Of a stretch of 64,000 nucleotides of DNA, positions 1,671 to 18,407 are shown piece after piece. The position numbers and the translations under genes were made by a program. This DNA comes from Sporosarcina ureae (GTDB lineage Bacteria; Bacillota; Bacilli; Bacillales_A; Planococcaceae). Positions within the stretch are counted from its first letter, which is position 1, and the number at the start of each line of letters is the position of its first letter. The stretch lies in the NCBI RefSeq assembly GCF_002109325.1, contig NZ_CP015348.1, positions 1,962,501-2,026,500 of the forward strand, read 5' to 3'. The notes under the pieces were generated by a model. It searched no databases, had not been told where the DNA came from, and worked only from the letters and a program-made list of their open reading frames with translations.

Positions 1671-1697
1671 GCCATTCCCTTTGGGGAGTGGCTTTTT
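1671..1697 (+). terminator. Rho-independent terminator of the rRNA operon
   Basis: GCCATTCCC and GGGAGTGGC form a hairpin with one wobble pair and a TTTG loop, followed by six T residues. It sits 8 nt after the 5S gene. Confidence 0.9.
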
Positions 1698-1795
1698 TGT
1701 GCTTTCAGGGAGAATTTAATCGCATTAAAGAGGAGATGATCCCGTTTAGTTATTGCGTTACCTTTTTATCCAGTATAATCAATCTTTCTCCGTGA

Positions 1796-2272: not shown

Positions 2273-2303
2273 CCCATCGCATAAACCTTTTTAAAAAGTA
2301 GAA

Positions 2304-2333
2304 TAAAAAAACCCATGTTAGAAAAGCCCATGG
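2304..2333 (-). terminator. Weak terminator after the 76-aa gene
   Basis: Read on the minus strand, CCATG and CATGG form a 5-bp stem followed by GTTTTTTT, about 50 nt past the stop of the 76-aa gene. The short stem and long loop make it weak. Confidence 0.4.
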
Positions 2334-2381
2334 ATTAAATAATAAATACCTATTAATTTTTGTTTGCTTTGGTTTTACTAC

Positions 2382-2612
2382 TCACACAGAGTAGTAAATA
2401 TCATCTTCACTCTCGTAGCGCACAGCAATGGACTGTCCATTATCTGATTGGAACTGCAAAGCAGCGATGTCTAGTTGGCCAGTAAGAATAGAAAATGAAT
2501 GATGATCATGCTGTGTAGGTAGAAGAGAATAGTGGATAATATCATGAATAAGAGAAGACATATCTTCAAATGAAGTAAAAATATAATACTCATTAACCAT
2601 ATAAGCCGGCAT
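2382..2612 (-). CDS. Uncharacterised 76-aa protein
   Basis: I do not recognise this protein. It is 76 residues, acidic, rich in Tyr, His, Asp and Ser, with no signal peptide or membrane segment, and ends in a DDIYYSV tail. I start it at the ATG at 2612, which has AAGGAG nine bases upstream; an in-frame TTG at 2639 would put the Shine-Dalgarno sequence inside the gene. It has its own minus-strand promoter (-10 near 2725) and a folded 5' leader, and is separated from the upstream XRE gene by a terminator, so it is probably a single-gene transcript. Composition resembles a small soluble cytoplasmic protein; no function is assigned. Confidence 0.7.
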   Translation of the reverse strand: MPAYMVNEYYIFTSFEDMSSLIHDIIHYSLLPTQHDHHSFSILTGQLDIAALQFQSDNGQSIAVRYESEDDIYYSV

Positions 2613-2674
2613 ATTGCTCATCTCCTTGTAATTAGCCAAAGAACGGATCGACGGAGGGGCCGAAGCGAATAACT

Positions 2675-2720
2675 TTCAGGCTAGCAGGTACTTTGCAGCC
2701 GGCTTCAAAATGAGCCTGAA
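2675..2720 (-). promoter_or_regulatory. Folded 5' leader of the 76-aa gene
   Basis: TTCAGGCT (2675-2682) and AGCCTGAA (2713-2720) form a perfect 8-bp stem around a loop containing the palindrome GCCGGC. With the -10 at 2725-2730, transcription would begin at about the first base of this stem, leaving a leader of roughly 105 nt before the ATG. It has no terminator-like T run, so it may affect stability or translation rather than attenuation. Confidence 0.45.
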
Positions 2721-2724
2721 TTAT

Positions 2725-2754
2725 ATTATATGCTTCAAATAGAATATTTGTGAA
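2725..2754 (-). promoter_or_regulatory. Sigma-A promoter of the 76-aa gene
   Basis: On the minus strand TTCACA (2749-2754) and TATAAT (2725-2730) are separated by 18 bp. The -35 differs from consensus at one base and the -10 is perfect. Confidence 0.6.
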
Positions 2755-2756
2755 TA

Positions 2757-2793
2757 TAAAAATCATTCTACCGTTATTATAAAGTAGAATGAT
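2757..2793 (-). terminator. Terminator of the XRE regulator gene
   Basis: On the minus strand ATCATTCTAC and GTAGAATGAT make a perfect 10-bp stem (2762-2793) followed directly by TTTTTA. It ends the XRE gene and separates it from the 76-aa gene. Confidence 0.75.
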
Positions 2794-2841
2794 AGAAATT
2801 ACTATTGAGTATTGTTAATTTATTGAAAAAGGGTAATTAGA

Positions 2842-3225
2842 TTATTTTCTCAAACTAAACATAGTTTGCATGAAGGCCAACAGTGCATTTTTATCTGCGT
2901 CAGATAAGTCTATTCCGTTAAAAGATACTTGTCCGCGTAAAATATTCTCAAGAGCAAGATCTTTAGGTTGTCTCTTGTTTTTTGAAGAAGAGATGGCTTG
3001 ATCTACTGTTTCGTTAGGTAAGTAACCTGCCAATATTAGTAACTCGTTTTTATCCGTCTCTAACGCAGCTGCCAATGCACAAATCGTTTCACGAGAAGGA
3101 TTGTATCTACCTTTCTCCAGTGAAGCAATGAAAGAGTAGCTCAAGTCAGCGCGATCTGCCAAATAACGTAAAGTCATTTCACGTTGTTCACGTAATTTCC
3201 GTAGACGATTTCCAAACTCGTTCAA
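2842..3225 (-). CDS. XRE-family transcriptional regulator
   Basis: A 127-residue DNA-binding protein with an N-terminal helix-turn-helix of the XRE/Cro type (about residues 4-60: RLRKLREQREMTLRYLADRA then SYSFIASLEKGRYNPSRETI). The C-terminal half is a short, mostly helical region of unknown role, perhaps for dimerisation. I start at the TTG at 3225, which has AAGGTGG eight bases upstream; the in-frame GTG at 3237 overlaps that ribosome-binding site. It reads away from the exopolysaccharide island, 800 bp from its first gene, so it could control the island, itself, or neither; the sequence does not decide this. Confidence 0.88.
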   Translation of the reverse strand: MNEFGNRLRKLREQREMTLRYLADRADLSYSFIASLEKGRYNPSRETICALAAALETDKNELLILAGYLPNETVDQAISSSKNKRQPKDLALENILRGQVSFNGIDLSDADKNALLAFMQTMFSLRK

Positions 3226-3277
3226 TAATATCCCCACCTTATCTATCTACAGTTTTTAGTAAAAAGTATGCATTACT

Positions 3278-3306
3278 ATTATAGCCTATTTATATAAAGA
3301 TAAACA
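3278..3306 (-). promoter_or_regulatory. Probable promoter of the XRE gene
   Basis: On the minus strand there is a perfect TATAAT (3278-3283) with a weak -35 TGTTTA (3301-3306) 17 bp upstream, about 55 bp before the start codon. Confidence 0.45.
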
Positions 3307-3610
3307 GAACAAAGTCAAAAGTCTAATAGGTAAAAAGACTATTTTATTAAAAAAATTACACTATTCAAATAAACCTTCGATAGATCTCGTCTGATGATAG
3401 CTTAGATAAATATAGTTAAAGCGGATACAGCACTGTATTTGAATTTTTGCCTATATAGTTATTTTACTTTATTGAGTGGTGAACTTCTATACTCCATATC
3501 CCTTAGTTTTTAAATAGTTTACTTTCTATATGTATTTTTAACGAGCCTACAAAGAAACTCATGTATTAAAAATTCATTTTATTACGCGATAGAATTATCT
3601 GACAAATGTG

Positions 3611-3639
3611 TTGACAAAAAGAACAAAAGGGCATAATAT
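3611..3639 (+). promoter_or_regulatory. Strong sigma-A promoter facing the island
   Basis: A perfect TTGACA (3611-3616), a 17-bp spacer and TAATAT (3634-3639). It is the best promoter between the XRE gene and the island and points toward the island, so it may drive the whole operon with a leader of about 390 nt, or a separate small RNA. Confidence 0.65.
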
Positions 3640-4037
3640 GTGTTGTAAGGCTAAACAAAAAGTTTTTTTGCTCTCTTTGTTTAGAAAAACAACACAAAAT
3701 AATTCTTGATATAGAAAGGGGAGTAGAAGGGGTTCCGATGTATACGGCTACCCACATTATATATTCCACAGTTTACCTTTGCATCTGCTTACGTTTATCT
3801 TGTGTAGCATTTTAGCTTTTGTATTAGTTTGCTGGACAGTAATTATAAGGATGATTGTAGTGATAGGCGATAGTAAAAACATACGTAACGAAAAGCAGTA
3901 GAACTTTTATGTAGTCAGCGAACAGGTCTGAACTTCTTATTAACACAGGTCGTTCGGAATACTTAGTGTAATCTTTGTACTTTATACTAACAAATTTGAC
4001 TAAAAATGTGGTGACACAGAAAGTGCAGGTGTTGAGA
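3640..4037 (+). promoter_or_regulatory. Long leader with hairpins before the exopolysaccharide genes
   Basis: Directly after the promoter a long imperfect hairpin can form: GTGTTGT (3640-3646) with ACAACAC (3689-3695), and inside it CTAAACAAA (3651-3659) with TTTGTTTAG (3676-3684). A smaller stem pairs CGAAC (3919-3923) with GTTCG (3952-3956). No known riboswitch consensus is visible; I looked for the cyclic-di-GMP classes and did not find their conserved core. A 25-codon frame (3738-3815, AAGGGG upstream) is present but not convincing. From 3307 to 3610 I see only AT-rich sequence with no gene. Confidence 0.4.
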
Positions 4038-5510
4038 ATGCGTTATGAATCTAAGGAATCTCGCAACAAGAGCAAAATGAAGTCTACCACTCTTCTTTTA
4101 TTTCTAAGTTCTATATTGGTAGTAGGAGGGTGTTCACCTCTATTTGGAAATAGAGCAAATAATGACTCTAATGCAGTCGCATTAGCCAGTGAAAAGGTAG
4201 ACCACTATGTCGGTGAGAAAAGTGAGGCTCTTTCTTTTGTATGGACTACTAGAAAGGAGTTATCCCTAACATTTAACGGAATGGCTGATAAAAAGACGAT
4301 GTTGGAACTTTTGGATGCATTAGAGGAAAACAATATTCCTGCTACATTCTTTTTACCTGGTATTCGGGTAGCAGAAGAGCCTGAAATTGCTAAGTTGATT
4401 TTGGAACGTGGTCATGAAATAGAAAACAACACATTGAATCAAATGGAAATTCGGAATATGAGTTATGAACAGCTATATAAAGAAGTGAAACTGAGTAATG
4501 AAGTAATTCGAAATGAAACCGGTGTTACACCTCGTTATGTAAGGACTAGATCTGGTGATTACAATGAAGAACTGCAAGCAGTCACTGCACAACTGGGAAT
4601 GGATGCAGTCATTAATTACACAATCAATCCACGTGAAGGGGATATGCAAGGGGCTAAAACAATTGGAGACTATATTGAAAGATATATAACACGCGGGTCC
4701 ATCATTTCTATGCATACGGACATCAATCCCGAGGTAGTAGGATCCATTCCATATATCGCAAAAGCTGTAGAAAAAACAGGCTATAAATTGGTCCTGCTAA
4801 AAGAACTGGTCGATAGGGGAACTGAACGCAAATCACTGGAGCAAATTACAGGCTATGATCGAATCAAAATCAATCCAAACTATAAAGACATCAAAACCAA
4901 CATCTTCTACGACGCTCAAACGGAAGAAAAAGTTATTGCACTGACATTCGATGACTGGGCAAGCGACTATACAGTGTCCAAGATTCTAGACATTTTAAAA
5001 GAGGAGAAGGTTCCGTCCACGTTCTTCCTGATTGGTAAAGGTGTAGAGAAGAATCCAAACCTAGCACGAGCAATTTATGAACAGGGGCATGAAGTAGCAA
5101 GTCACTCATACGGTCATGAAGTTGTAACAGGGATGACCCCTGAAAGGTTACAAGAGGATTTGGTGAAATCCCACAGAGCGATTACCGAAGCTATTCAAGC
5201 AAGGCCCACAATGTTATTTCGTCCTGCTACAGGAGAAATAGATGAAGAAACTGCAAAGATTGCTATGGCTACAGGTTATAAAAGTATTGCATTATATGAT
5301 GTCACACCGTTTGACTGGGACCTGGAAAATGATGCAGATGAAATTGTAAAACGCGTCATCAATAAACGCGGAGATGGAAGCGTCATCGTACTTCACATCT
5401 TAGATGGCACACATACGATCGAAGCCCTACCTAAGGTGATTCATACATTACGCGAGGAAGGCTACACATTTAAACATATGTCCGAATTAATGCGAATGAA
5501 GAATAACTAA
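4038..5510 (+). CDS. Lipoprotein with two polysaccharide-deacetylase (NodB) domains
   Basis: Family role: removal of N- or O-acetyl groups from a polysaccharide outside the membrane. The 490-aa protein begins with a basic stretch and a hydrophobic segment ending in the lipobox VVGGC (Cys32). Two NodB-like domains follow. The first (about 75-260) is degenerate: LTFNGM (residues 77-82) replaces TFDD, and ENNTLNQ replaces the NHTxSH metal motif. The second (about 298-490) keeps TFDDW (303-307), SHSYGH (355-360), RPATG and VIVLHI, so it is probably the active one. I start at the ATG at 4038 with AGGTG upstream; a later ATG at 4077 would also keep the signal. It is the first gene of the island, 18 nt before the dehydrogenase. 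Confidence 0.88.
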   Translation: MRYESKESRNKSKMKSTTLLLFLSSILVVGGCSPLFGNRANNDSNAVALASEKVDHYVGEKSEALSFVWTTRKELSLTFNGMADKKTMLELLDALEENNIPATFFLPGIRVAEEPEIAKLILERGHEIENNTLNQMEIRNMSYEQLYKEVKLSNEVIRNETGVTPRYVRTRSGDYNEELQAVTAQLGMDAVINYTINPREGDMQGAKTIGDYIERYITRGSIISMHTDINPEVVGSIPYIAKAVEKTGYKLVLLKELVDRGTERKSLEQITGYDRIKINPNYKDIKTNIFYDAQTEEKVIALTFDDWASDYTVSKILDILKEEKVPSTFFLIGKGVEKNPNLARAIYEQGHEVASHSYGHEVVTGMTPERLQEDLVKSHRAITEAIQARPTMLFRPATGEIDEETAKIAMATGYKSIALYDVTPFDWDLENDADEIVKRVINKRGDGSVIVLHILDGTHTIEALPKVIHTLREEGYTFKHMSELMRMKNN

Positions 5511-5528
5511 TAGATGGAGATGGTATCA

Positions 5529-6848
5529 ATGGCGAATACATTATACGAGCGAATCGCAGATAAACAGGAAAAGATTGCGGTAGTTGGTTTGGGTTACGTA
5601 GGACTACCGGTGGCTATCGCATTTTCGGAAGTGGCTGACGTCATAGGTTTCGATGTTAGTGAAAAAAAGATCGATCAATTATTCGCTGGAATTGACGTGA
5701 CGGGCGATGTAGGAGACGAACGAGTACGCGATACAAGTATGCTATTCACTTCAGATGAAAAAGACTTACAAGATGCAAAGTTTTTCGTTGTCGCCGTTCC
5801 CACTCCTATTCAGTCAGGAAATCTCCCAGATTTAAAATTTCTTCAATTGGCCAGCCAAGCTGTGGGCCGAAATATGAAGAAAGGATCGATCGTAGTCTAT
5901 GAATCAACAGTTTATCCAGGGGTTACAGAGGAAGTATGCATACTCGAACTTGAAGCAGCATCCAACCTGAAGTTTGGAACAGATTTTACGGTTGGCTACT
6001 CGCCAGAGCGAATTAATCCGGGTGATCAAGTACATCGTCTTGAAAATATTGTGAAAATCGTCTCGGGTAGTGATAAAAAAACACTGGATACTGTGGCAAG
6101 CGTCTATGAAATGATTATTGATGTCGGTGTATACCGTGCGGAATGTATCAAAGTAGCAGAAGCGGCAAAAGTTATTGAAAATGCACAACGGGATATCAAC
6201 ATTGCGTTCATGAATGAACTTTCCATGCTGTTCAATCAAATGAAGATTGACACACAGGCAGTCTTACGGGCGGCGAAAACCAAGTGGAACTTCTTACCGT
6301 TCTCACCGGGCTTAGTAGGAGGACATTGTATCGGAATTGACCCCTACTATTTAACATATAAAGCAGAAGATTGCGGTTACCGATCTAGGATATTACTTGC
6401 GGGGCGTCATATCAATGATTCCATGGCAATATACATTTCCCAGCAAATCCTTAAAAATCTGGCGCAGCAGAAAGTGAATATGAACGATATTAAAGTAGGC
6501 GTACTGGGCCTAACCTTTAAAGAAGATTGTCCCGACTTCCGTAACACGAAAGTACTCGATATTATCAATGAATTAAAAGAGTATGGAATCGAACCTATTG
6601 TAGCAGACCCATTAGCAGATCCCCAAGCAGTGAAAGAAGAATGTGGTATTACACTAACGTCAGTTGATGAATTCAAAGACTTGCATGCGGTGATTGTGGC
6701 AGTACCTCATGAAACATACAGGGGACTTAGGCTGGAAGATTTCCAGCAAATGTTCAAGTCAGAGACTACGCAGCTATTAGTAGATATAAAAGGTATCTAC
6801 AATAAAAAGGAGTTTGAAGAGCAAAATATTCGATATTGGAGTCTATAA
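5529..6848 (+). CDS. UDP-N-acetylhexosamine 6-dehydrogenase (TviB/WbpO type)
   Basis: Family role: two-step NAD-dependent oxidation of a UDP-sugar to a UDP-uronic acid in the cytoplasm. The 439 residues show the Rossmann motif VVGLGYVGLP (18-27), the NADP/sugar-binding middle and the catalytic Cys267 in GGHCIGIDPYYL. KWNFLPFSPGLVGGHCIG and PTPIQSGNLPDL resemble the TviB/WbpO/CapL group, which uses UDP-GlcNAc or UDP-GalNAc, more than the UDP-glucose enzymes TuaD/HasB; this is judgement from motifs. Start chosen at the ATG at 5529 with GGAG nine bases upstream. It would supply the uronic-acid precursor for the GT2 synthase 15 nt downstream. Confidence 0.9.
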   Translation: MANTLYERIADKQEKIAVVGLGYVGLPVAIAFSEVADVIGFDVSEKKIDQLFAGIDVTGDVGDERVRDTSMLFTSDEKDLQDAKFFVVAVPTPIQSGNLPDLKFLQLASQAVGRNMKKGSIVVYESTVYPGVTEEVCILELEAASNLKFGTDFTVGYSPERINPGDQVHRLENIVKIVSGSDKKTLDTVASVYEMIIDVGVYRAECIKVAEAAKVIENAQRDINIAFMNELSMLFNQMKIDTQAVLRAAKTKWNFLPFSPGLVGGHCIGIDPYYLTYKAEDCGYRSRILLAGRHINDSMAIYISQQILKNLAQQKVNMNDIKVGVLGLTFKEDCPDFRNTKVLDIINELKEYGIEPIVADPLADPQAVKEECGITLTSVDEFKDLHAVIVAVPHETYRGLRLEDFQQMFKSETTQLLVDIKGIYNKKEFEEQNIRYWSL

Positions 6849-6863
6849 GAAAGGAGTGGAATT

Positions 6864-8660
6864 ATGGTGAAAGAAAAACTAACGACCAAAACAGTAGTCA
6901 GACACACTAGTGAATCGACACTTCTTCCGAACGTTCCAATAGTTCGAAGAGATGAAGAAGGCAACATGGTCGAAACAAATCGCCTGTTGAAAGATTCCTG
7001 CTCATGCGACTTCAACGTCATAATGAAAGAAAAAATGTTCGGCACTAAAATGAAAACAAAAGCTATCGAAATATCTAAAACTGAGCTGATTGTGGACTTC
7101 GATTCATCTATGAATGCACTGAAAGCCGGTGATGTTGTAAACTTACGCTTTAAAATTCCCGAAGGAACATTGGGCGAAGGGTACGAGTCGACAGTGAGAA
7201 TCCAAGGAACAGTTAGCTGGCAAGAAGTGAAGATGCCAAATGGTGAAGTAAGCTGGAAAATGGTATTCAGATTTGTTGAATCTTTGGATACGTACTTCCA
7301 AAGAACGAAATGGAGATTTATTACGACTATCACTCTTGCCAGTCTACTGCTCGTATCATTCTTCATTGTATTAATGCGTGTTGAAAGTTTAGTCTACTTT
7401 AAATTCAATAAATTCATTTACTTCTATAGTCTCATTGCAGCTACCTTCTTGCTGACTCGTTATATATTTGGAGCCTTATATAAAAATGTCCCAATTAACC
7501 CAAATTATCGTCCGGGTGTTTCCATTATCATTCCTGTCTTCAATGAAGAGGAATGGATTCATAAAACGATTTACAGCTGTCTAAATCAGAACTATCCTAT
7601 CGACAAGCTGGAAGTAATCGTTGTAGATGATCAGTCTACAGATCTCACGGTAGAAAATGTTTGGAAAGCGGTAGAAAAGTTGGGACAAGAAGATGAAGTT
7701 TACAAAATAAAAGAGCGATTACAAGTATACGTTATGCCGAAAAACGGTGGGAAACGCGAAGCTTTGGTTGATGGTGTAGCAATGGCTAAGCACGACCTCG
7801 TAGTATTCGTTGATTCTGATAGTTTTCTAGAACCAAACGCCATTTTGAATTTAGTCCAGCCGTTTCAAGATCCTAAAATGGGTGGCGTTGCTGGTCGAAC
7901 GGATGTTGAAAATAAATATGCAAACAGTATTACTAAATTACAAGTTGTACGTTATTACATTGCCTTCCGCGTCATGAAGGCAGCTGAATCATACTTTGAT
8001 TGCGTTACTTGTTTATCGGGTCCGCTTTCTTGTTACAGAAAATCCTTGATTCTCGAACACCAGGAAGATTGGCTCAATCAAACCTTCTTAGGCCAGCCAG
8101 CAACATTTGGTGATGATCGCAGTATGACCAACTTTATTTTACAAACACATCGCACAGCATATCAAGATAAAGCAATTTGTTCGACAGTTGTACCTGATAA
8201 ATTTGGTGTGTTTTTAAAACAACAAATGCGTTGGAAACGTTCGTGGTTACGTGAATCACTACGTGCAGGAACTTTTATTTGGAAAAAGGAAGTATTCATG
8301 GCTTTGTTCTTTTATGTAGGACTGATTGTACCGATAGCCGCGCCAGTAGTTGTACTGTACAACTTAGTATATGTACCGCTGTATCACGGTATATTCCCAG
8401 CGACATTTTTAATGGGACTATTCCTAATGGCCTTCATGATGAGCGCGGCTTACTTGTTCTTTAAAAGAAGCAGCTTGTGGATCTTCGGATTTGTCTTCGT
8501 GTTGATGTATGAAGCAGTTCTTTTGTGGCAGATGCCGGTTGCCTGGGTAACCTTCTGGAAATCTACTTGGGGAACACGTGATACACCACAAGACATCGAA
8601 GCACGAGAGAAGAAATTGGGGAAGAAGTTGAAAAAAGATCCTCTAACTATCAAATCATAA
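6864..8660 (+). CDS. Processive family-2 glycosyltransferase with PilZ-like N-terminus
   Basis: A 598-aa membrane synthase predicted to polymerise and extrude an exopolysaccharide. Order: a beta-rich PilZ-like region (about 48-138), membrane segments (about 152-171 and 183-203), a cytoplasmic GT2 domain (about 218-460), then four or so C-terminal membrane segments. Catalytic motifs are complete: VVDD (253-256), DSD (317-319), SGPLSCYR (385-392), GDDR (416-419), QQMRW (453-457). SGPLSxYR and GDDRxxTN are typical of hyaluronan-synthase, NodC and Alg8 relatives. The PilZ-like part keeps the fold pattern but I do not see a clean RxxxR, and EISKTEL replaces the D/NxSxxG motif, so cyclic-di-GMP binding is uncertain. 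Good RBS AAAGGAG. Confidence 0.92.
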   Translation: MVKEKLTTKTVVRHTSESTLLPNVPIVRRDEEGNMVETNRLLKDSCSCDFNVIMKEKMFGTKMKTKAIEISKTELIVDFDSSMNALKAGDVVNLRFKIPEGTLGEGYESTVRIQGTVSWQEVKMPNGEVSWKMVFRFVESLDTYFQRTKWRFITTITLASLLLVSFFIVLMRVESLVYFKFNKFIYFYSLIAATFLLTRYIFGALYKNVPINPNYRPGVSIIIPVFNEEEWIHKTIYSCLNQNYPIDKLEVIVVDDQSTDLTVENVWKAVEKLGQEDEVYKIKERLQVYVMPKNGGKREALVDGVAMAKHDLVVFVDSDSFLEPNAILNLVQPFQDPKMGGVAGRTDVENKYANSITKLQVVRYYIAFRVMKAAESYFDCVTCLSGPLSCYRKSLILEHQEDWLNQTFLGQPATFGDDRSMTNFILQTHRTAYQDKAICSTVVPDKFGVFLKQQMRWKRSWLRESLRAGTFIWKKEVFMALFFYVGLIVPIAAPVVVLYNLVYVPLYHGIFPATFLMGLFLMAFMMSAAYLFFKRSSLWIFGFVFVLMYEAVLLWQMPVAWVTFWKSTWGTRDTPQDIEAREKKLGKKLKKDPLTIKS

Positions 8661-8692
8661 CTATATGAATTTGTAGACAAGGAGAATGGCGT

Positions 8693-10420
8693 ATGAAACA
8701 AAAAAATAATGAAGTATTAGATTATGAAATGAAGAATCGTAGGAAAGTAAGACGTTCGATTTTTCAATTAGCTATCTTACTGATCGTAGTCTTCCTTGTA
8801 TTCCAAACGTTTGTCGAAATGAATCGTTATGATGCAACAGATAGTAAGGAATGGAAAAACAAGAAAGGCTTTATTGCACTATCCTATCCTGGTGTATCGA
8901 GGGATGGTTCAGATTCACTGTTTGCTAAGAAGCAATTGCAACAGCAGCTGCAAGCGTTAACAGACCAAGGATTCGTGACCATCTCTCAACAAGATGTCTT
9001 GGACTTCTATAAGAAAAAGAAACCATTACCCGAAAAGGCATTGTTTCTTGCTTTTGAAGATGGCCGTACGGATACGAGTGTATTCGTCAATCCATTGTTG
9101 AAGAAATATAACTACAAAGCAACATTACTATCCTTTGCCAATAAATTGAATGAGAAGGATAAACGGTTTTTGCAGCCTTCACATTTGAAGCAGATGCAAA
9201 AAAGCGGTTTTTGGGAATTAGGCAGTAATGGCAACCGCTTAACATATATCAATATCTTCAATAAAGCAGGCACATTTCTGAACATACGCAATGATGAGGA
9301 AGTACTGAGTAAGGATGAAATCGATTCGTACAATCACTTTTCGATGGACTTTATCCGCGATCAGTACTTGATCCCTAGTGAAAATCGTGTAGAGATGGAG
9401 CGACGAATTACAAAGGATTACGAAGAGATGCGTCAAACATATCAAAAACAGTTGGGTTCGACACCGGGTGTCTACATGATCATGCACGCCAATGGGCTCT
9501 ACAATACGGCAAACAATTTGGTTACCGAAGTAAACGACAAGGAAATTAGAAAGACTTTCGATATGCACTTCAATCAAGAAGGAGACGCGTACAACACAAA
9601 GGATAATGAATTATATAATCTTACACGTGTCCAGCCCGTGCCTTCCTGGTCAACCAATCATTTGCTAATGAAAATTCAAAAAGACACCAACCAAAAAGTA
9701 GAATTTGTAAAAGGGAATGAAAAACAAGCGAGGCAATGGAAGGAAGTGGAAGGGGCGGCTGAGTTCAACGAGAACACCATTACACTTACATCAAAAGCAA
9801 GAAAGCAAGGGAAATTGATATTGACAGAGAGTAATGACAAAGACATTCAATTTACTGGCAAAGTGGGCGGGGATGTTGAAGGTCAACAATCCATTTTCTT
9901 ACGGCGTAGTGATAATGGTGATGGATATGTGAAAATAGCATTTGAAAATGATCAAATAATTATTGAAGAAAAAGTAGAAGGTCATTTGAATGAATTGCTT
10001 GATACCCAGTCAATTGAGATAATCAATCACGCTCAAGCGACTGATAGTGATGAGTCCACTTCAAGAAATGAAAATGAAGTGCAACAAGAAAAACTACCCA
10101 ACGAAAAGTATATAGAAATGAAGCTTCAAGATAATAAGTTATCCATTTGGATAAATGACAAAAAAGTTATCAATAAGCTAGCTATCAATCCAGATATTCA
10201 AGCTGGCAAACTAGCACTTGGTTCTACATGGATAACAGGTGACTTTAATGATCCAATCCATGATGCACACTTCAGTGATATCACAATCACTTCATTAGCA
10301 AATAAAGACGTTGCGCAAACTACATTATTCACAAATGAAATACAAAAACCACAGCAAGTCATGTATACGTTTGTCGGTTCTATCAAGTCTGCAATGAACT
10401 GGGTTGTTGATAATTTCTAA
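8693..10420 (+). CDS. Membrane-anchored deacetylase-like protein with C-terminal jelly-roll region
   Basis: A 575-aa protein with a short cytoplasmic start, one membrane segment (about 23-40) and an external part. Residues 58-330 follow the pattern of PgaB/YdaL-like NodB domains: a QL-x-LTDQGFVTIS block, then ALFLAFEDGR (117-125) where an active enzyme has TFDDG, and ELGSNG in place of the ExGxHT motif. It is therefore probably an inactive or altered deacetylase that binds the chain. Residues about 350-545 look beta-rich (KLALGSTW near the end), like a LamG/DUF1080-type carbohydrate-binding fold. AAGGAG lies eight bases before the ATG. It follows the synthase by 32 nt and probably acts on or guides its product. 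Confidence 0.75.
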   Translation: MKQKNNEVLDYEMKNRRKVRRSIFQLAILLIVVFLVFQTFVEMNRYDATDSKEWKNKKGFIALSYPGVSRDGSDSLFAKKQLQQQLQALTDQGFVTISQQDVLDFYKKKKPLPEKALFLAFEDGRTDTSVFVNPLLKKYNYKATLLSFANKLNEKDKRFLQPSHLKQMQKSGFWELGSNGNRLTYINIFNKAGTFLNIRNDEEVLSKDEIDSYNHFSMDFIRDQYLIPSENRVEMERRITKDYEEMRQTYQKQLGSTPGVYMIMHANGLYNTANNLVTEVNDKEIRKTFDMHFNQEGDAYNTKDNELYNLTRVQPVPSWSTNHLLMKIQKDTNQKVEFVKGNEKQARQWKEVEGAAEFNENTITLTSKARKQGKLILTESNDKDIQFTGKVGGDVEGQQSIFLRRSDNGDGYVKIAFENDQIIIEEKVEGHLNELLDTQSIEIINHAQATDSDESTSRNENEVQQEKLPNEKYIEMKLQDNKLSIWINDKKVINKLAINPDIQAGKLALGSTWITGDFNDPIHDAHFSDITITSLANKDVAQTTLFTNEIQKPQQVMYTFVGSIKSAMNWVVDNF

Positions 10421-10453
10421 TGACTGGCATGAGCTGAAAAGGCGGAGATTTCA

Positions 10454-11731
10454 ATGCTAACTACTAAAAACATCATATTCATTGTGATTTCCTGCCTCTT
10501 TTTCAGTGGATGTCAGGAAAAGAAACAGCAAACTATGGATTTATCAGTTCTAGATGAATTGAAGTTTTCAGCTTGGGTTACAGAATGGCAATGGCAAAGC
10601 GGAGTGGAGGATCTACGACAAGTTGAAGGTCTTGATAGAGCACAGGTTTTTGCAGCATATTTCGATGGGGAAGATCACATTTACTTCCGCGATAAAATGG
10701 ACGATGCCATTGCTGGTATGAAGAAGCTATCAAAAGAACGTAATATCCCGCTGGATTTAACGATTGTGAATGATCTGTTTCTACCCGATGGAACAGTTGT
10801 CCACAAAGATTCAGAGTTAATTGGACGATTGATAGAAACGCCTGAAAGTCGTAAACAACATATTGATAATATTTTGGAGTACATCGATACCTATCAATTT
10901 GAAGGTCTTGAAATAGACTACGAAAATATAAACGAAGAGGACTTGCCGAATTTGATCCAGTTTTATCAAGAACTGCATGTCGTTCTTGAAGCACAAGGAA
11001 AACCATTGCGTATTATATTGGAGCCTAACTTACACGTGGAACAATACAACTTTCCAACAGGACCGGTTTACGTCATGATGGCTTATAACTTACATGGGGG
11101 GCATTCCGAGCCGGGCCCAAAAGCGGATGACGAGTTCATCCGTAAAGTAGTGAATAAAATGAATACTCTTCCTGGGCAACCGGTTATCGCCTTATCAGCT
11201 GGCGGTTTTAGTTGGCAGCACGGAAATGGGGAAACGAAAACCCTCACAGAGATGGATGCAGAGGGTCTTGCTGAAACAGCGGATGTTGTACCTATGCGAG
11301 ATCCATCGAGTGGCAGCATGTACTTTGATTACCAAGATGCACATGGTGATACGTTTACTGTTTGGTATGGAGATCAGCAAACCTTGTATCAATGGATGAA
11401 GATTTCAGCTGAAGAGGGACAGACGAGGGTTTCTTTATGGCGAATGGGGGGAATGGAAACATCCACATTGGAATTCCTGAATAAAGCCGTCAATTATAAA
11501 GCGAAGGCGAGAGGAGAAAACGAGATGTTTGCCAATCATATAAAAGAACTTAGGAAACAAATGAATCTGACGCAGGCAGAGTTGGCCGAGCGAGTGGGGA
11601 TCGGACGTACAGCCTTATCCAAAATAGAGAACGGTGCGTACTATCCAAGTGCCAAAACAATGAAAAAGATTTCGGATGTACTTAATAAGCCAATTGGGGA
11701 AATATTTTTTAATACAGATATATCTTCATGA
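10454..11731 (+). CDS. GH18-like lipoprotein fused in frame to an XRE helix-turn-helix
   Basis: The first 350 residues look like an exported lipoprotein: hydrophobic N-terminus, lipobox FSGC (Cys20), then a GH18-like barrel with FEGLEIDYEN (149-158), in which Asp155 and Glu157 fit the end of the DxxDxDxE motif, and a VMMAYNLHG strand. Residues 358-425 are a standard XRE DNA-binding domain (NLTQAELAERVGIGRTALSK). An exported enzyme has no evident use for this domain. The HTH part begins with an ATG at 11525 preceded by GAGGAG eight bases upstream, so it may be made separately as a 68-aa regulator. Either a stop between two genes has been lost or an overlapping gene lies inside. GGCGGAG precedes the first ATG. 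Confidence 0.82.
   Translation: MLTTKNIIFIVISCLFFSGCQEKKQQTMDLSVLDELKFSAWVTEWQWQSGVEDLRQVEGLDRAQVFAAYFDGEDHIYFRDKMDDAIAGMKKLSKERNIPLDLTIVNDLFLPDGTVVHKDSELIGRLIETPESRKQHIDNILEYIDTYQFEGLEIDYENINEEDLPNLIQFYQELHVVLEAQGKPLRIILEPNLHVEQYNFPTGPVYVMMAYNLHGGHSEPGPKADDEFIRKVVNKMNTLPGQPVIALSAGGFSWQHGNGETKTLTEMDAEGLAETADVVPMRDPSSGSMYFDYQDAHGDTFTVWYGDQQTLYQWMKISAEEGQTRVSLWRMGGMETSTLEFLNKAVNYKAKARGENEMFANHIKELRKQMNLTQAELAERVGIGRTALSKIENGAYYPSAKTMKKISDVLNKPIGEIFFNTDISS
11525..11731 (+). CDS. Possible separately translated XRE regulator inside the GH18 gene
   Basis: This is the same reading frame as the end of the GH18-like gene. The ATG at 11525 has GAGGAG with an 8-nt spacing, as good as any other site in the operon. 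The 68-aa product would be a complete minimal HTH_3 regulator beginning MFANHIKELRKQMNLTQAEL. It would sit directly before two LAL regulators, a sensible place for another regulatory gene. Whether it is made independently of the fusion cannot be told from sequence. Confidence 0.5.
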   Translation: MFANHIKELRKQMNLTQAELAERVGIGRTALSKIENGAYYPSAKTMKKISDVLNKPIGEIFFNTDISS

Positions 11732-11799
11732 CAAGTGAACAGTATGTACCGTCCATATCCTAGTGTGAGTCGTAAAGCGACCGAGGGGAGAGAAGATTC

Positions 11800-14358
11800 A
11801 TGAAAGTACATGGAGCAGATGAAAAAATTAAAATGCCACTAGCAAACGAAGAAATAATCTTCAGAAAAGACATAGAGGTTCCTATTCATATGAGGGTAGT
11901 GCGACTTACTATTATTCGTGCACCAAAGGGATACGGAAAGACGATGTTGCTAAGTAAATCACTCTTCGAGACAAAAGACTCAACGGCTTGGCTCACATTG
12001 GATGGAATGGATAATGATCCGGTTCGGTTTTGGACGTACGTGATTACCGCACTAGGTGGAATTGGGAAAGCGTTCGATACAGAAAAACTATTGTCATTCG
12101 TTAAAACTAGCCCACCTCATTTCATGATCGTCGACATATTGTTGAATGAACTAACTAACATGCATGGTAAAACCGCACTTATTCTAGATGATTATCATAT
12201 GATCACGAATCCAGTCATCCATAAAATGATGAACAGATTCATCGATTACTTACCACATCACGTAAAGCTGTTCATAGCGAGTCAAAATGAAGTACCACTA
12301 ACTGTTTCAAAGTGGCGGACAAAAGGTTGGGTATATGAAATTGGTATTCAACAACTACAATTTCAACTGCATGAAATTCGAGAGCTATATAGCAAGCATT
12401 CACCTGAAATGAGTCATTCTATATTTTTTTATCAGCAAGTATTACGTATTACAGAAGGTTGGGCTTTAGGGATCCAATTAATCCACTTGGCGGGAATAGA
12501 GGATGATCGTCAATGGGAGTCAAAGGACTCTTCCATATTATCACCCGTGGTAGCAAATCACTTACTCTATGAAGTTTTATCGAGCCTCAAGCCTTCGATG
12601 CAAGACTTTCTTATACGTACATCCATGTTGAATGAATTAATACCTGAAAAATGTAATCAGGTATTGGGTCGTAGTGATAGTGAAGATAGATTGAAAGATA
12701 TAGAAAAAAGAGGGCTGTTTATTCATCGGTTAGATAACAGTCATTTGACATACAGATATCATAGTCTATTTTCAACTGCTTTACAAAACGAGATGCATCA
12801 ACGTTTTTCCAAAGACTCTATCACTGAAATTTATACCAAAGCAGCGTACGTCGAATATGAACAAGGTAATTATGCTCTAGCAATAGAGCTAGCGGTAAAA
12901 GGAAAACTCTTCACCGTAGCGGATCATTGGATCGAAGTGAATCTAGTAAACATCGTTTTATCTAAACAAATAGAAATGTTTATGTGGTGGGTTAAGACGC
13001 TTCGTAAAAACTCCTTTGAAATTCATGTCGAAACGCTTGCCATATACGCATTCAATCTAGCCATGCAGTTTGAGATGGAAAAGGCAGGATCGATTGTTAG
13101 AGAGCTTGATCGTAGACATGAAAAAGATGGTTGGAAAAGTGAGACCGCATTGGAAGATGCATCACTAATTTTAGAGGTCGTAAAAGTCTTTATGTTGTGT
13201 ACGCAGTGTGGACCGACAGATAAGAGAGTCCTGTATTTACAGCAAAAGATTCACAATCACCCATTTTCAACAGATTCTCGATGGAAACATGTGTCCATCA
13301 TTTATAACCACTTTGAACCACAGTTGTTACGCACTAGTTTAGGCAACAGAGGTAAACTGTGCTCCATCAAACAATTATCTATATACAATGACACGTTGCG
13401 AAGTGATAAATTCCTCGCCCACAATTTAGCCGGGTATAGTTATGGTCTGCAAGCCGAAGTTCTTTATGAAATGAATCTACTGCCCGAATCAGAGCAATAT
13501 ATAGAAAAGGCAATGGAATATACTTACCGTCATGCCGACGCAGGCTTGTCTGTCCCCATGTACATTTTACAAGCGAAGATTTATCTAGACGGTAAACAGT
13601 TTATCAAAGCACAAGCCATACTCAACCACGCGATAGAGTCAGCGGTTAATCCCAACTGGCAATGTATTTTAATTACAATGAAAGCACTTGGTTATATTCG
13701 GGAAGGGTCTTTAGATCGGGCGGAATTTGAATTGAACAGATCATCAAGTCTAACCTACAAGCAGGCAGAGCCCCGCTTGGAATTCTGGATTCTCGTACGA
13801 GCAAGATGGCATATGGAAAAAGGCAATATCCGAAGAGCTCTTTATTATATTGATCAAGTGGCGCAAGAAGCTAAAGAAAATTTTCAATTGACAACTTTAA
13901 TAGAAGCAAAGGTATTGCGATCAATCTGCATGTGGCAAACCAATAAGAGAAAACTGGCGGTGGAGACACTTCATGAAGCACTCGAATTGGCAGTGAAGTC
14001 AGGTTATAAAAGACTATTCATGGATGAAAAAGCATTAAATTCAGTGCTGATCAGTTATATCAAAAGTCGAATGAATTTTGAACGGGCAGAATGGGAGACG
14101 GTCCCGCTTGTTTTTGCACAGTCGTTACGCACAGACCATATCACTCGTCCCACAACCACTCATCATAGTAAACCGAAGCTAACTCCGCGAGAGGAAGAGC
14201 TGATCAAAGCACTTGCGACAGGTTCAACAAATAAGGAAATAGCTGAACAACTATTCCTTTCAGAGGGAACCGTTAGAGTGTATTTATCGAAGGTGTATAA
14301 AAAGCTCAATGTCAGCTCGCGAACTCAAGCTATATTGCAAGTGAAGGATTGGCAGTAG
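11800..14358 (+). CDS. LAL/MalT-type LuxR-family regulator, first copy
   Basis: An 852-aa ATP-dependent transcription activator of the LAL class. It has an N-terminal STAND-type NTPase with Walker A APKGYGKT (41-48) and Walker B ILDDYH (128-133), a long helical, TPR-like sensor region, and a C-terminal LuxR helix-turn-helix (about 788-850: LTPREEELIKAL, TNKEIAEQLFLSEGTVRVYL). In family members such as MalT a small ligand, often a sugar, binds the sensor region and triggers DNA binding. GGGGAGAG precedes the ATG. It follows the GH18-HTH gene by 68 nt with no terminator between, so it is likely in the same operon. Confidence 0.9.
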   Translation: MKVHGADEKIKMPLANEEIIFRKDIEVPIHMRVVRLTIIRAPKGYGKTMLLSKSLFETKDSTAWLTLDGMDNDPVRFWTYVITALGGIGKAFDTEKLLSFVKTSPPHFMIVDILLNELTNMHGKTALILDDYHMITNPVIHKMMNRFIDYLPHHVKLFIASQNEVPLTVSKWRTKGWVYEIGIQQLQFQLHEIRELYSKHSPEMSHSIFFYQQVLRITEGWALGIQLIHLAGIEDDRQWESKDSSILSPVVANHLLYEVLSSLKPSMQDFLIRTSMLNELIPEKCNQVLGRSDSEDRLKDIEKRGLFIHRLDNSHLTYRYHSLFSTALQNEMHQRFSKDSITEIYTKAAYVEYEQGNYALAIELAVKGKLFTVADHWIEVNLVNIVLSKQIEMFMWWVKTLRKNSFEIHVETLAIYAFNLAMQFEMEKAGSIVRELDRRHEKDGWKSETALEDASLILEVVKVFMLCTQCGPTDKRVLYLQQKIHNHPFSTDSRWKHVSIIYNHFEPQLLRTSLGNRGKLCSIKQLSIYNDTLRSDKFLAHNLAGYSYGLQAEVLYEMNLLPESEQYIEKAMEYTYRHADAGLSVPMYILQAKIYLDGKQFIKAQAILNHAIESAVNPNWQCILITMKALGYIREGSLDRAEFELNRSSSLTYKQAEPRLEFWILVRARWHMEKGNIRRALYYIDQVAQEAKENFQLTTLIEAKVLRSICMWQTNKRKLAVETLHEALELAVKSGYKRLFMDEKALNSVLISYIKSRMNFERAEWETVPLVFAQSLRTDHITRPTTTHHSKPKLTPREEELIKALATGSTNKEIAEQLFLSEGTVRVYLSKVYKKLNVSSRTQAILQVKDWQ

Positions 14359-14387
14359 AACTACTATCGACAAAGGGGATGGCTATA

Positions 14388-16895
14388 ATGGTTGTATTAG
14401 TAGAATCGAAAATACAAAAGCCTGTTCATTTTGAAAAGTGGATTAGCAGGGAGAGTATGTTCACCGTCCGACATGAGGCGGTACAGTCAAACGTACTATT
14501 TATCAGCGCTCCAACGGGTTATGGTAAGACGACATTTTTAACTCGTTGGTCAGAAGAACTTGATGAACATATTGCATGGCTATCAGTCGATGAAAGCGAC
14601 AATCAAGCACTTCATTTCTTTGGATATATTATCTATACCGTTTATTCAGCGTGTAATTTGCTACCCAAAAAGAAATTACAAAAGAAGTTAGCCAAAGCAG
14701 ACCGGAATGAACTGGATGCTATGTGGAGCTACTATAAAGAACTAGACAGAGGTAAAGAAAAGCCGATACGATTGATCATCGATGACTTTCATCATATTAA
14801 TGATCCAGAACTATTGGAAATGATTCAATACTTTGTAGTAAATTTACCGAAATCATTAAAAATTTGCTTCGCCAGTCGCCATCTTCCCCCCTTTACACTC
14901 GCACTATGGCAATCCTTATTAACTGTCACTGAAGTTAGAATGCAGCAATTGCGCATTACGGATGATGATATGAAAAGCTACTTGAAACAACACCCTCAAC
15001 AGCAAGGATCAGTATGGCAAGAGTTTATTCAAACGGAAGGGTGGCCTGCGGGACTTCAAGAGGTTTTACAGTCACAAGGAATATCTCATCAATTGAGGTC
15101 TGACAGGCATCGACAATTCACAATGAATGTCCTAACAAATGATTTATGGAGCAATTTTTCAGGCTCCGCACAGCATTTCCTCTTAGTGACATCCATCTTG
15201 GACACAATGAATCAACAGATATGTGATGCCTTACTCGAAAGTAAAGAGAGTCTTATTCATTTAAAGAATTTAGAAGAAAAAGGGTTTTTCATAGAAAGTG
15301 ATTCAGAAATAGATACACAATATCGCTATCATCCACTTTTTGCTGTAGCGCTACGGCAAAACTTGCAGAAAAACCATTCCAAGGAATTTGTATCTGCTTT
15401 GCATAGGAAAGCTGCAGGGATATACTTTCGGCAAGGTAATGTTGTGGAAGCCATCACCCATGCCTTAAAGGGGCAAGCGTACCCACTTGCAAGCACTTGG
15501 ATGATGCATTACGGTGAGGATCTTATAAAAAATAAAAAAACTGCATCTTTTATCTCCTGGTGTAAAGAATTTGAAAAAGTTCATATTCCATTGGCTTTTG
15601 ATCTTCAACTGCTCTTTGCTTTTGCCCTTCTAGCTGAGCATCAAGTGGATGAAGCAGATCACGTCATGAACCAAATGACGGCGCAAGGGAATCGGAAAGA
15701 ATGGAATGCTTTTACCGAAAGAAGTCGATCTGCTGCATACGACTATTTCTTAATCAAATCCTATATCACAATCATTCGAATGGGTGGCGTGACAGAAGTA
15801 GGACAGTGGCTGCAAAAGGGCTTTGATTTACATGTAGAAAAAAGCTCCAAACTATACGTGCTACCACTTCAATTTAATAAAGTAGAGCCTGTATTATTAC
15901 GAACACCACTAGGTTCGGCCAAAAAATTAGGCATACAGCAAACTCTACTAGAGATACAATCTTGCCAGACAAATAAACTGTCCATAATAGGTTATTATCA
16001 TGGTATTCAAGCTGAAACATTGTACGTGACAGGTTCAATAAAAGAAGCTAGACAGCAACAAGTAGAAGCGCTACTTCTAGCACATCATTTCCAAGATCCA
16101 GGTCTGTTGATACCTATGTATGTATTGAGTTGTAAATTGCATATAGCGAATGGTGAGATGGAAAAAGCACATGAGACGATCCGAAGCGCTTTACTATATA
16201 CCGAAGACGGCTATTGGAAAGGGTTTTTATACGCATTCGAAGCATTCCTGCACTTGAAACAAGACCATCTAGAAGATGCAGAAATGGCGCTCTCGATGAT
16301 ACAACGTGACTATGCAGAAGGTATACAGCAACATCCTTTTGTTACGCTTGTAGAAGCAAGACTGCTTTTGAGAAAAGGGCAATGGGAAGAAGCATTGGAG
16401 AAAACATTGTGTGTGAAGTTCGAAGCTTTAGAAGAAAGGCAAGTAGTAACATATATTGAGGCTACGATCTTAGAAAGTTCTTGTTACGCGCGTATGGCAT
16501 ACTGGCCCGAAATGGCTCAGTCCTTACAAGATGCAATGGCTTATAGTAAAGAATATGGCTATACGCAGTTATTCGTGGAAGAAGACAATATGGAGGATAT
16601 GCTAAAAGAATATGTGAAATTACGTAAGCAACAAATTGATAGGGAATGGACGCAGGTTCCACACTTCTACGTAGAACGCTTGATACAGGCCACAAAAGAA
16701 AGGAACCCTGTCCTAGAGTTGCTAACACCACGTGAACAGGAAGTGTTCTCACTTCTTGTGCTAGGTGAAACCAATTATAAAATAGCAAAAAACCTAGCTT
16801 TGACGGAAGGGAGCGTGCGGATCTATTTAACTTCTATATATGAAAAGCTATGTGTCAATTCTAGGAAGCAAGCCATGTTAAAGGCGTATAAATAA
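14388..16895 (+). CDS. LAL/MalT-type LuxR-family regulator, second copy
   Basis: An 835-aa paralogue of the preceding gene with the same architecture: Walker A APTGYGKT (41-48), Walker B LIIDDFHH (129-136), helical repeat sensor, and LuxR HTH (LLTPREQEVFSLLVLGETN near residue 775 onward). The two diverge clearly in the sensor region, so they may respond to different signals or form a mixed complex. I start at the ATG at 14388, which has AAAGGGG nine bases upstream and lies 29 nt after the first copy; an in-frame TTG at 14349 overlaps that gene and lacks a binding site. It is the last gene before a strong terminator. Confidence 0.9.
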   Translation: MVVLVESKIQKPVHFEKWISRESMFTVRHEAVQSNVLFISAPTGYGKTTFLTRWSEELDEHIAWLSVDESDNQALHFFGYIIYTVYSACNLLPKKKLQKKLAKADRNELDAMWSYYKELDRGKEKPIRLIIDDFHHINDPELLEMIQYFVVNLPKSLKICFASRHLPPFTLALWQSLLTVTEVRMQQLRITDDDMKSYLKQHPQQQGSVWQEFIQTEGWPAGLQEVLQSQGISHQLRSDRHRQFTMNVLTNDLWSNFSGSAQHFLLVTSILDTMNQQICDALLESKESLIHLKNLEEKGFFIESDSEIDTQYRYHPLFAVALRQNLQKNHSKEFVSALHRKAAGIYFRQGNVVEAITHALKGQAYPLASTWMMHYGEDLIKNKKTASFISWCKEFEKVHIPLAFDLQLLFAFALLAEHQVDEADHVMNQMTAQGNRKEWNAFTERSRSAAYDYFLIKSYITIIRMGGVTEVGQWLQKGFDLHVEKSSKLYVLPLQFNKVEPVLLRTPLGSAKKLGIQQTLLEIQSCQTNKLSIIGYYHGIQAETLYVTGSIKEARQQQVEALLLAHHFQDPGLLIPMYVLSCKLHIANGEMEKAHETIRSALLYTEDGYWKGFLYAFEAFLHLKQDHLEDAEMALSMIQRDYAEGIQQHPFVTLVEARLLLRKGQWEEALEKTLCVKFEALEERQVVTYIEATILESSCYARMAYWPEMAQSLQDAMAYSKEYGYTQLFVEEDNMEDMLKEYVKLRKQQIDREWTQVPHFYVERLIQATKERNPVLELLTPREQEVFSLLVLGETNYKIAKNLALTEGSVRIYLTSIYEKLCVNSRKQAMLKAYK

Positions 16896-16913
16896 TATAG
16901 GACGATACAAATG

Positions 16914-16947
16914 GCGATACTTCTTACATCAGAAGTGTCGCTTTTTG
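16914..16947 (+). terminator. Terminator of the exopolysaccharide/LAL operon
   Basis: GCGATACTTCT and AGAAGTGTCGC form a strong hairpin with a short loop followed by TTTTTG, 18 nt after the second LAL gene. Confidence 0.85.
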
Positions 16948-16982
16948 CTATACTGAATGAAAGTAAAGGAGTGTAAAAACAC

Positions 16983-18407
16983 ATGAAGTATCGAGATCGC
17001 CCACTTGTACAGGCGTTGCAGGATTTTAACGACAAAAACCCCATTTCACTCCATGTACCTGGCCATAAAAATGGGATGTTATCTGATTTGCCAGAGGCTC
17101 TGCGTCAAGCACTTGCATATGACGTAACAGAGTTGACAGGACTCGATGATTTGCATGAGCCGACAGAAGCGATTAAACAAGCTGAAGATAAGCTGTCCAA
17201 TCTTTATGGAAGTGACCGTAGTTTCTTTTTGGTGAACGGTTCGACAGTAGGGAATCTGGCTATGCTGTATGCGACGGTTCAACGGGGTGACTCAGTTATT
17301 GTGCAACGCAATGCACATAAATCGATATTTAATGCACTGGAACTAACAGGTGCCAATGCGGTATTTCTTTCCCCAGATTGGCATGAGCAAACACAAACGG
17401 CTGGAACGGTATCGTTGAGAAGTATAAGAGAGGCACTCGCGCAGTATCCGAATAGTAAAGCAGCTATTTTAACTACGCCTACGTATTACGGAATGGTAAA
17501 TAAAGATCTGAAAGCGATTATAGAAATTTGTCACAGCCATAACATACCGGTTTTAGTGGATGAAGCGCACGGTGCGCATTTTATAGCGAGTAAAGAATTT
17601 CCAAAGAGCGCACTAGAACTCGGAGCGGATGTTGTCGTTCAGTCTGCTCATAAAACACTACCTGCTATGACGATGGCATCTTTTTTACATGTTCGTTCGC
17701 AATTTATAGAGTTGGAACGAGTGGCTCATTACCTACAAATGTTGCAGTCGAGTAGCCCGTCCTATTTATTAATGGCATCTTTAGATGATGCAAGATATTA
17801 TGCAGAGATGTATGATGAGGATGACTTTGAAAGTTTTCAACTATACAGAAGTAGTTTAATTCGAGGTTTATCTACTATAAATCACGTCGAAGTAGTGGAG
17901 ACTGACGATGAACTAAAGTTGCTTATACGTGTAATAGGTCATACCGGGTTTATCTTGCAGGAAGCATTGGAACAACAGGGTGTGTATACGGAGTTGACGG
18001 ACTTATATCAAGTGCTACTAATACTGCCTTTAGTAAAAGCGAAACATGTAGAATCATGTGCTCATATAATCGACAAATTTAGGCGAGCAGTGGATAGTGT
18101 AACAGATCGAGAAGATACGTCAGTAGAAATCCATAACTTCTTGCCAATTAGTACTCCGACATCGGTAGTCTATACGGCAAACCAAATTCATACGATGGAT
18201 ACAGAGTGGGTAGATATTGAGAAGGCAACAGGAAAAGTGGCGGCAGATGCCGTTATTCCCTATCCACCAGGCATTCCTCTAGTATGTGCAGGGGAGCGCA
18301 TTAGTCGCGAGCACGCTGAACAAATGCATAAACTCTTGACGGCTGGCTGTAGATTTCAGGGAGCATTCAATATTGAGAGGAAACAAATAATAGTAGTAGT
18401 CGAATAG
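16983..18407 (+). CDS. yaaO: PLP-dependent Orn/Lys/Arg decarboxylase-family protein (YaaO)
   Basis: A 474-aa fold-type I PLP enzyme of the ornithine/lysine/arginine decarboxylase family. HVPGHKNG near the N-terminus, NGSTVGN, VDEAHGAH and SAHKTLPAMT (the Schiff-base lysine) are all present. YaaO of B. subtilis has the same length and neighbour (tmk). Its substrate is not certain; arginine or lysine decarboxylation to a polyamine precursor is the family expectation. AAAGGAGTG lies before the ATG. It begins the conserved core after the island and is followed 15 nt later by tmk. Confidence 0.9.
   Translation: MKYRDRPLVQALQDFNDKNPISLHVPGHKNGMLSDLPEALRQALAYDVTELTGLDDLHEPTEAIKQAEDKLSNLYGSDRSFFLVNGSTVGNLAMLYATVQRGDSVIVQRNAHKSIFNALELTGANAVFLSPDWHEQTQTAGTVSLRSIREALAQYPNSKAAILTTPTYYGMVNKDLKAIIEICHSHNIPVLVDEAHGAHFIASKEFPKSALELGADVVVQSAHKTLPAMTMASFLHVRSQFIELERVAHYLQMLQSSSPSYLLMASLDDARYYAEMYDEDDFESFQLYRSSLIRGLSTINHVEVVETDDELKLLIRVIGHTGFILQEALEQQGVYTELTDLYQVLLILPLVKAKHVESCAHIIDKFRRAVDSVTDREDTSVEIHNFLPISTPTSVVYTANQIHTMDTEWVDIEKATGKVAADAVIPYPPGIPLVCAGERISREHAEQMHKLLTAGCRFQGAFNIERKQIIVVVE

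Follow-up and report, generated by a model that had tools for sequence, protein, structure and literature searches.

The stretch of DNA analysed here, hereafter the window, comprises 64,000 nucleotides of the Sporosarcina ureae contig NZ_CP015348.1 (positions 1,962,501 to 2,026,500), and is part of a 3.38-Mb genome for which the closest named records belong to Sporosarcina strains from the S. ureae group. We propose that it carries a synthase-dependent exopolysaccharide cassette lying inside a divergent switch made of two repressors, a reading that we hold to be somewhat on the probable side. The features of the locus, in window coordinates, are as follows, where ORF stands for open reading frame and the module for the XRE/HTH gene pair with its promoter and operator-like element.

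2382..2639, minus strand: small ORF of 85 amino acids beside the XRE gene.
2842..3237, minus strand: XRE regulator of 131 amino acids with HTH_3 and HTH_31 matches, the divergent half of the proposed switch.
3611..3639, plus strand: sigma-A-type promoter TTGACA-17-TAATAT, kept in the 15 module loci.
3641..3658, plus strand: operator-like element TGTTGTRN5RAACAA over the expected transcription start, conserved in the module loci.
3673..3701, plus strand: inverted imperfect second copy of the element, seen as an inverted repeat (3634-3662 with 3673-3701, 76% complementary).
4038..5510 (start 4038 or 4077), plus strand: NodB1, a lipoprotein with two deacetylase domains, the N-terminal one degenerate and the C-terminal one intact.
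5514..6848, plus strand: NDH, a TviB-type nucleotide-sugar 6-dehydrogenase, by profile scores and tree.
6864..8660, plus strand: GT2, a processive synthase resembling hyaluronan synthase (HAS) and NodC, with an altered N-terminal PilZ-like module.
8693..10420, plus strand: NodB2, a membrane-anchored PgaB-fold protein with a CBM66-like domain.
10454..11731, plus strand: GH18 lipoprotein whose stop codon has been lost, so that its frame runs on into the HTH.
11525..11731, plus strand: HTH, a single-domain XRE regulator of 68 amino acids, preceded by a separate ribosome-binding site (AGGAG, 11512-11516).
11800..14358, plus strand: LAL1, a MalT/LuxR-type regulator.
14349..16895, plus strand: LAL2, a MalT/LuxR-type regulator.
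16913..16942, plus strand: terminator-like hairpin of 12 pairs, from the terminator scan.

Gene content, gene order and enzyme classes are read here directly from the sequence, and so are the conserved promoter and element, the place of the cassette and the missing PilZ signature; the predicted folds of the structure models are counted with them. The ORF scan gives seven co-directional ORFs over 4038-16895 on the plus strand, so that an earlier note on this DNA, which had described eight reading units in one direction, was right as to the direction, while its count is reached only with the HTH counted apart. Its domain calls (a polysaccharide deacetylase, a TviB-like dehydrogenase, a GT2, a weak deacetylase, GH18 with HTH_3 and two MalT/LuxR proteins) were recovered, but its operon interval began too late, at 4038, because the regulatory part starts upstream with the XRE gene and the promoter/operator region (3611-3658). 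The single terminator that it proposed corresponds to the terminator-like hairpin, and no further plus-strand terminator-like site was found between the genes by the terminator scan, which is however no richer in such sites than shuffled sequence (10 sites versus 9.8). No known RNA, riboswitches included, was found at E<=1 within 1680-17000.

We first consider how widely the five genes from NodB1 to GH18 occur. The synthase was used as a query against genome contigs, giving 150 relatives, of which the best 80 by similarity were kept; the sample thus leans towards close relatives, and because some contigs among these 80 loci break off within the cassette or close to it, complete cassettes are undercounted. 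The exact order NodB1-NDH-GT2-NodB2-GH18 is present in 50 of the 80 Bacillota loci, and in most of the remaining 30 the dehydrogenase is missing, of another kind or placed differently, or an end gene is lacking. Scattering of the genes in relatives had been named beforehand as the outcome that would speak against the operon; the order is instead kept across Bacillota, and the description of the operon as uncommon and of its combination as new is wrong for the five-gene core. No other recurring gene cluster lies near the cassette in more than 14 of the 80 loci. In three Paenibacillus loci (L063, L074 and L082; at about 2000-6600) a second GT2/dehydrogenase locus stands just upstream of the cassette. 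A search of the open-licence literature, by titles and the starts of abstracts, gave no paper on the cassette or the switch, which is no proof of absence. The five-gene set is thus a widespread Bacillota cassette for which we found no description in the literature searched, its polymer type being assigned as probable.

Within the family the synthase is present in 41 of 200 sampled genomes, and within the genus in 10 of 68 (nine full-length, one a fragment). The seven Sporosarcina rows of the synthase tree group together (support 99) inside a larger clade made up mainly of Paenibacillaceae, and Lysinibacillus, Kurthia and Bhargavaea, from their own family, stand in a separate clade (98). This placement suggests transfer. 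A long stem (0.54) leads to the S. ureae group. Decayed copies are seen in genomes G103 (L156, 10057-11808) and G179 (L124, 5862-10285); a GH18 match in G203 was rejected as a cassette member because it belongs to another locus.

The nature of the polymer is indicated mainly by the dehydrogenase. The best-scoring NCBIfam equivalog for NDH is TviB, with 451.8 bits against a cut-off of 592 and hence below it, the two models for N-acetylmannosamine dehydrogenase giving 210 and 205 bits and TuaD 117. When each of the 80 loci is typed by the best of three tblastn queries, together with NCBIfam for ten representatives and a tree, the dehydrogenase is TviB-type in 63, WecC-like in 13 and not nearby in 4, the WecC-like version being that of Lysinibacillus and Metasolibacillus loci. 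A dehydrogenase of the UDP-N-acetylhexosamine (UDP-HexNAc) type therefore accompanies the cassette in 76 of the 80 loci, at several operon positions. In the dehydrogenase tree, where grouping with UDP-glucose enzymes had been set as the result that would weaken a single-polymer operon, the window enzyme falls inside the TviB-type clade and not with E. coli Ugd, whose branch is so long that its own exact place is unsure. The genome encodes two dehydrogenases over the TIGR03026 cut-off, that of the operon and a WecC-like one, and none of the UDP-glucose type over the model cut-off. Since two UDP-HexNAc-type dehydrogenases serve one synthase family from different operon places, the polymer likely contains an N-acetylhexosaminuronic acid rather than being hyaluronan, as the earlier note had proposed, and its idea of a single-polymer operon with this kind of dehydrogenase is supported by the tree and by the kept gene order.

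It is noted that the class I hyaluronan system (hasA-hasB) resembles the cassette in having one membrane GT2 and a nucleotide-sugar dehydrogenase gene, and that hyaluronan synthases are the best solved relatives of the GT2 both by sequence and by fold. A hyaluronan-like polymer, made by a synthase that uses UDP-glucuronic acid and UDP-N-acetylglucosamine (UDP-GlcNAc) as HAS does, might thus be supposed. By contrast with hasA-hasB, however, the cassette has a UDP-HexNAc-type dehydrogenase in place of a UDP-glucose dehydrogenase supplying UDP-glucuronic acid, two deacetylase-fold proteins, a GH18 protein and an N-terminal PilZ-like module. With the TviB-type enzyme in the operon, the lack of a UDP-glucose-type enzyme over cut-off in the genome and the partner type kept across the loci, hyaluronan was set aside, and we regard it as very improbable.

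The remaining enzymes invite comparison with other known systems. In NodB1 the deacetylase motifs are kept in the C-terminal half and not in the N-terminal half, as judged from sequence and alignment. The model of NodB2 has a predicted fold matching PgaB (Z 21.8) and CBM66 (Z 18.6), with a PgaB equivalog score of 54.3 bits against 321.9, below the cut-off. In an alignment of 23 of the NodB2 proteins at hand, the FEDG motif and histidines 215 and 265 are invariant, but the histidine pair usual for the PgaB metal site is not evident, so that NodB2 may or may not be enzymatically active. Of the GH18 motif the terminal DxE is conserved, and the protein is nearest to an enzyme of the sporulation type. 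The poly-N-acetylglucosamine (PNAG) systems (pgaABCD, icaADBC) are similar in that NodB2 has a PgaB/IcaB fold, the likeness being of fold only, and the deacetylation of an extruded HexNAc polymer is likely, by analogy, a logic shared with them. They differ in that the cassette adds a dehydrogenase, lacks the evident metal-site histidines in NodB2, and has a GT2 that scores higher for NodC, its nearest NCBIfam model, than for PgaC/IcaA (112 bits against a cut-off of 422.3), below both cut-offs. With the Vi capsule the cassette shares the dehydrogenase subfamily (TviB) by best score, but other Vi-type genes were not seen in it by domain and profile scans.

The pathway that we infer, with its sugar, its linkage and its enzymatic steps, would be as follows. 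The dehydrogenase would make a UDP-N-acetylhexosaminuronic acid, most likely UDP-N-acetylglucosaminuronic acid from UDP-GlcNAc, and the membrane GT2 would polymerise the uronic acid, probably in alternation with GlcNAc, and extrude the chain. Outside the cell NodB1 would take off acetyl groups, NodB2 would hold the chain by its CBM66-like domain, and the GH18 lipoprotein would trim it.

A further observation concerns the N-terminal module of the synthase. In an alignment of 31 of the synthases at hand, Pfam PilZ matches 26 rows. Two motifs, [DE]RR...[DNE]RR followed by D-I/V-S-x-x-G, are recognised by eye in each of the 26 rows that lie outside the S. ureae group. In the window synthase and six relatives both motifs are gone, no PilZ domain with D/NxSxxG is found, and Pfam PilZ gives no match to the N-termini of these seven S. 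ureae-group synthases even at E<=10; the label PilZ-like, used before, is corrected accordingly for the window protein, whose orthologues do match. Within the same genus, the synthase of G230 keeps both motifs and that of G211 keeps DISSTG with the first motif altered. By this comparison of sequences, the synthase of the S. ureae lineage is one that has lost the PilZ signature of its relatives. Two other accounts of the change were tried and rejected: relaxed selection on the N-terminal module is not supported by the ratio of nonsynonymous to synonymous differences (pN/pS), and a genome-wide loss of cyclic di-GMP (c-di-GMP) signalling is contradicted by the 14 GGDEF and 2 PilZ matches that the genome still encodes. 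Since the signature has been lost, control may have moved from c-di-GMP at the synthase to the switch at the promoter.

The comparison with the ydaJ-N locus of Bacillus subtilis is relevant here. That locus has DUF2334 and GH8 partners and is not known to include a dehydrogenase, in which it differs from the cassette. The two are alike in being Gram-positive and in having membrane glycosyltransferases with a link to c-di-GMP (PMC5422440). In G234 the switch is followed by a locus of the ydaJ-N type.

The proposed switch consists of two divergent XRE genes with a conserved operator-like element between them, as in a CI/Cro-like arrangement. One of the two, the HTH, had been taken together with GH18 as one regulator. 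In G122 and G211, however, GH18 stops before a separate HTH gene, so that these are two neighbouring genes; loss of this stop has brought the two into one frame in the window and in five relatives (L032-L035 and L122), with the Shine-Dalgarno sequence AGGAG before the HTH start at 11525 kept in spite of the fusion. Within the S. ureae group the HTH is 92-100% identical, versus 67-85% for GH18. Because an HTH borne on a lipoprotein could not reach the DNA, internal initiation is the likely source of the working regulator.

XRE orthologues are present in 15 of the 68 genus genomes, and the switch was found in Sporosarcina only. The HTH is found at an identity of at least 52% in 14 of these 15 genomes; in G235 the XRE gene is frame-broken and the HTH was not seen. 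The small ORF beside the XRE gene, found by tblastn in 13 of the 15 module loci, L170 and L171 being the exceptions, and without a match in Pfam, NCBIfam or PHROGs, is perhaps a third part of the switch. A consensus score for the promoter was badly registered (shuffles reach 29 of 49, the real loci 28-37), and a pattern search with a reversed control was therefore used instead. Of 261 family genomes, 16 contain the promoter-plus-element pattern, 14 of them exactly at the module loci, and 3 of 261 contain the reversed pattern; in G215 the last base of the forward pattern differs. The window holds a single match to the promoter pattern, against none in 100 shuffles of it, and exact matches to the element lie at two places in the genome, namely 3641-3658 and a site inside an ORF.

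It might be argued that an ordinary synthase-dependent polysaccharide operon merely lies between two unrelated XRE genes, so that the neighbourhood is uninformative on its control. XRE genes are common, binding by the switch is a prediction, and in G230 the XRE pair is missing although the cassette is there. This is hard to reconcile with the promoter and element, whose length and spacing are identical in the 14 matched module loci, including those with other cargo, and which stand 25-28 bases before the HTH in the four cassette-free genomes G217, G234, G215 and G225 and upstream of NodB1 in the cassette-bearing genomes, the cassette thus lying between promoter and HTH. We consider such a chance neighbourhood rather unlikely.

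The cargo behind the switch changes from genome to genome. It is the cassette in 8 of the 15 loci, a decayed cassette in G103 and LAL genes only in G134, where a cassette remnant was not found and which the XRE/HTH tree places beside the S. ureae group. In G234 it consists of DUF2334, GT2, UDP-GlcNAc 2-epimerase and GH8 genes, and in G215 and G225 of CpsB/CapC-like, epimerase, GT2 and Wzx-like genes. Directly behind the switch in G217 (L159, 8772-14852) are asparagine-synthase, PqqD, transglutaminase-like, HPr-kinase-like and ABC genes, which we take to be a lasso-peptide cluster, and in G235 an asparagine-synthase-like gene is seen by eye in the sequence. The CI/Cro, SinR/SlrR and CylR2 systems, the last represented by a protein with which the HTH aligns over nearly its whole length, are alike in their two XRE proteins, divergent genes and one operator region, and may be alike in function; they are unlike the Sporosarcina switch in that its attached operons vary between genomes and its DNA binding is predicted.

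In the two-repressor switch that we propose, transcription would begin at the promoter 3611-3639, and we infer that the XRE protein, the small HTH or both bind 3641-3658 over the start site and repress it, with the HTH, last in the cassette, feeding back as in a CI/Cro- or SinR-like switch.

In the earlier note, by contrast, control of the operon was assigned to the two LAL proteins. No terminator-like site separates their genes from the HTH, and the genes occur at this locus in 8 of the 68 genomes, seven of which have the cassette, intact or decayed, while one lacks it; LAL1, at an identity of at least 58%, is found in 8 of the 68, all with the switch. The LAL genes are intact, however, without a working cassette in G103 (decayed) and G134 (absent), and S. 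ureae DSM 2281 has an intact cassette with LAL reduced to a stop-ridden fragment. Because they remain intact in genomes that have no working cassette, they are not specific to it, and their role as its own regulators appears quite unlikely, though they may share a transcript with the cassette. Near the cassette in G211 (L157, 20-4497) stand two tandem LAL-type genes, 34-40% identical to LAL1. Elsewhere in the window, at 1780-2270 in the stretch after the rRNA genes, there are imperfect 21-base repeats based on CGCTCTAT.

The broader proposal is that a portable three-part switch (XRE, small HTH and small ORF) with its promoter/operator controls whatever secreted-product operon is attached to it, and that capture of the cassette between promoter and HTH let promoter control take the place of c-di-GMP control, the PilZ signature of the synthase then decaying in steps, of which G230 shows the intact state, G211 a partly altered one and the S. 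ureae group the loss. This we put forward tentatively, as a possibility short of an even chance. Several points weigh against our interpretation as a whole. The cassette without the switch in G230 is one, and the promoter-NodB1 stretch of about 400 bases, where a further promoter is possible, is another. The GT2 structure model is middling (mean predicted local distance difference test score, pLDDT, 64.9). The altered N-terminal module is under purifying selection, with a mean pN/pS of 0.27 versus 0.09-0.34 in eight signature-bearing pairs, and may therefore bind a ligand in another way. The usual PilZ motif includes an RxxxR part; as this is not plainly present in the PilZ-bearing relatives either, those synthases too are at most putative c-di-GMP binders. 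Both the TviB and the WecC scores fall short of the curated equivalog cut-offs, so that the substrate is a probable one, and the dehydrogenase is not nearby in L076, L083, L091 and L102.

Finally, we note what the locus would mean. The analysis names a widespread Bacillota cassette for a probable N-acetylhexosaminuronic-acid polymer. Of the earlier note, the enzymatic reading largely stands, but its word uncommon and its regulatory reading do not, and it had overlooked both the XRE/HTH switch with its operator and the missing PilZ signature. What is new is the switch and its varying cargo, with the PilZ signature lost in parallel. If the proposal is true, Sporosarcina offers a natural exchange series in which one small switch has been joined to secreted products of different kinds, as well as an enzyme that seems to trade second-messenger control for promoter control, with close relatives as the before-and-after states.

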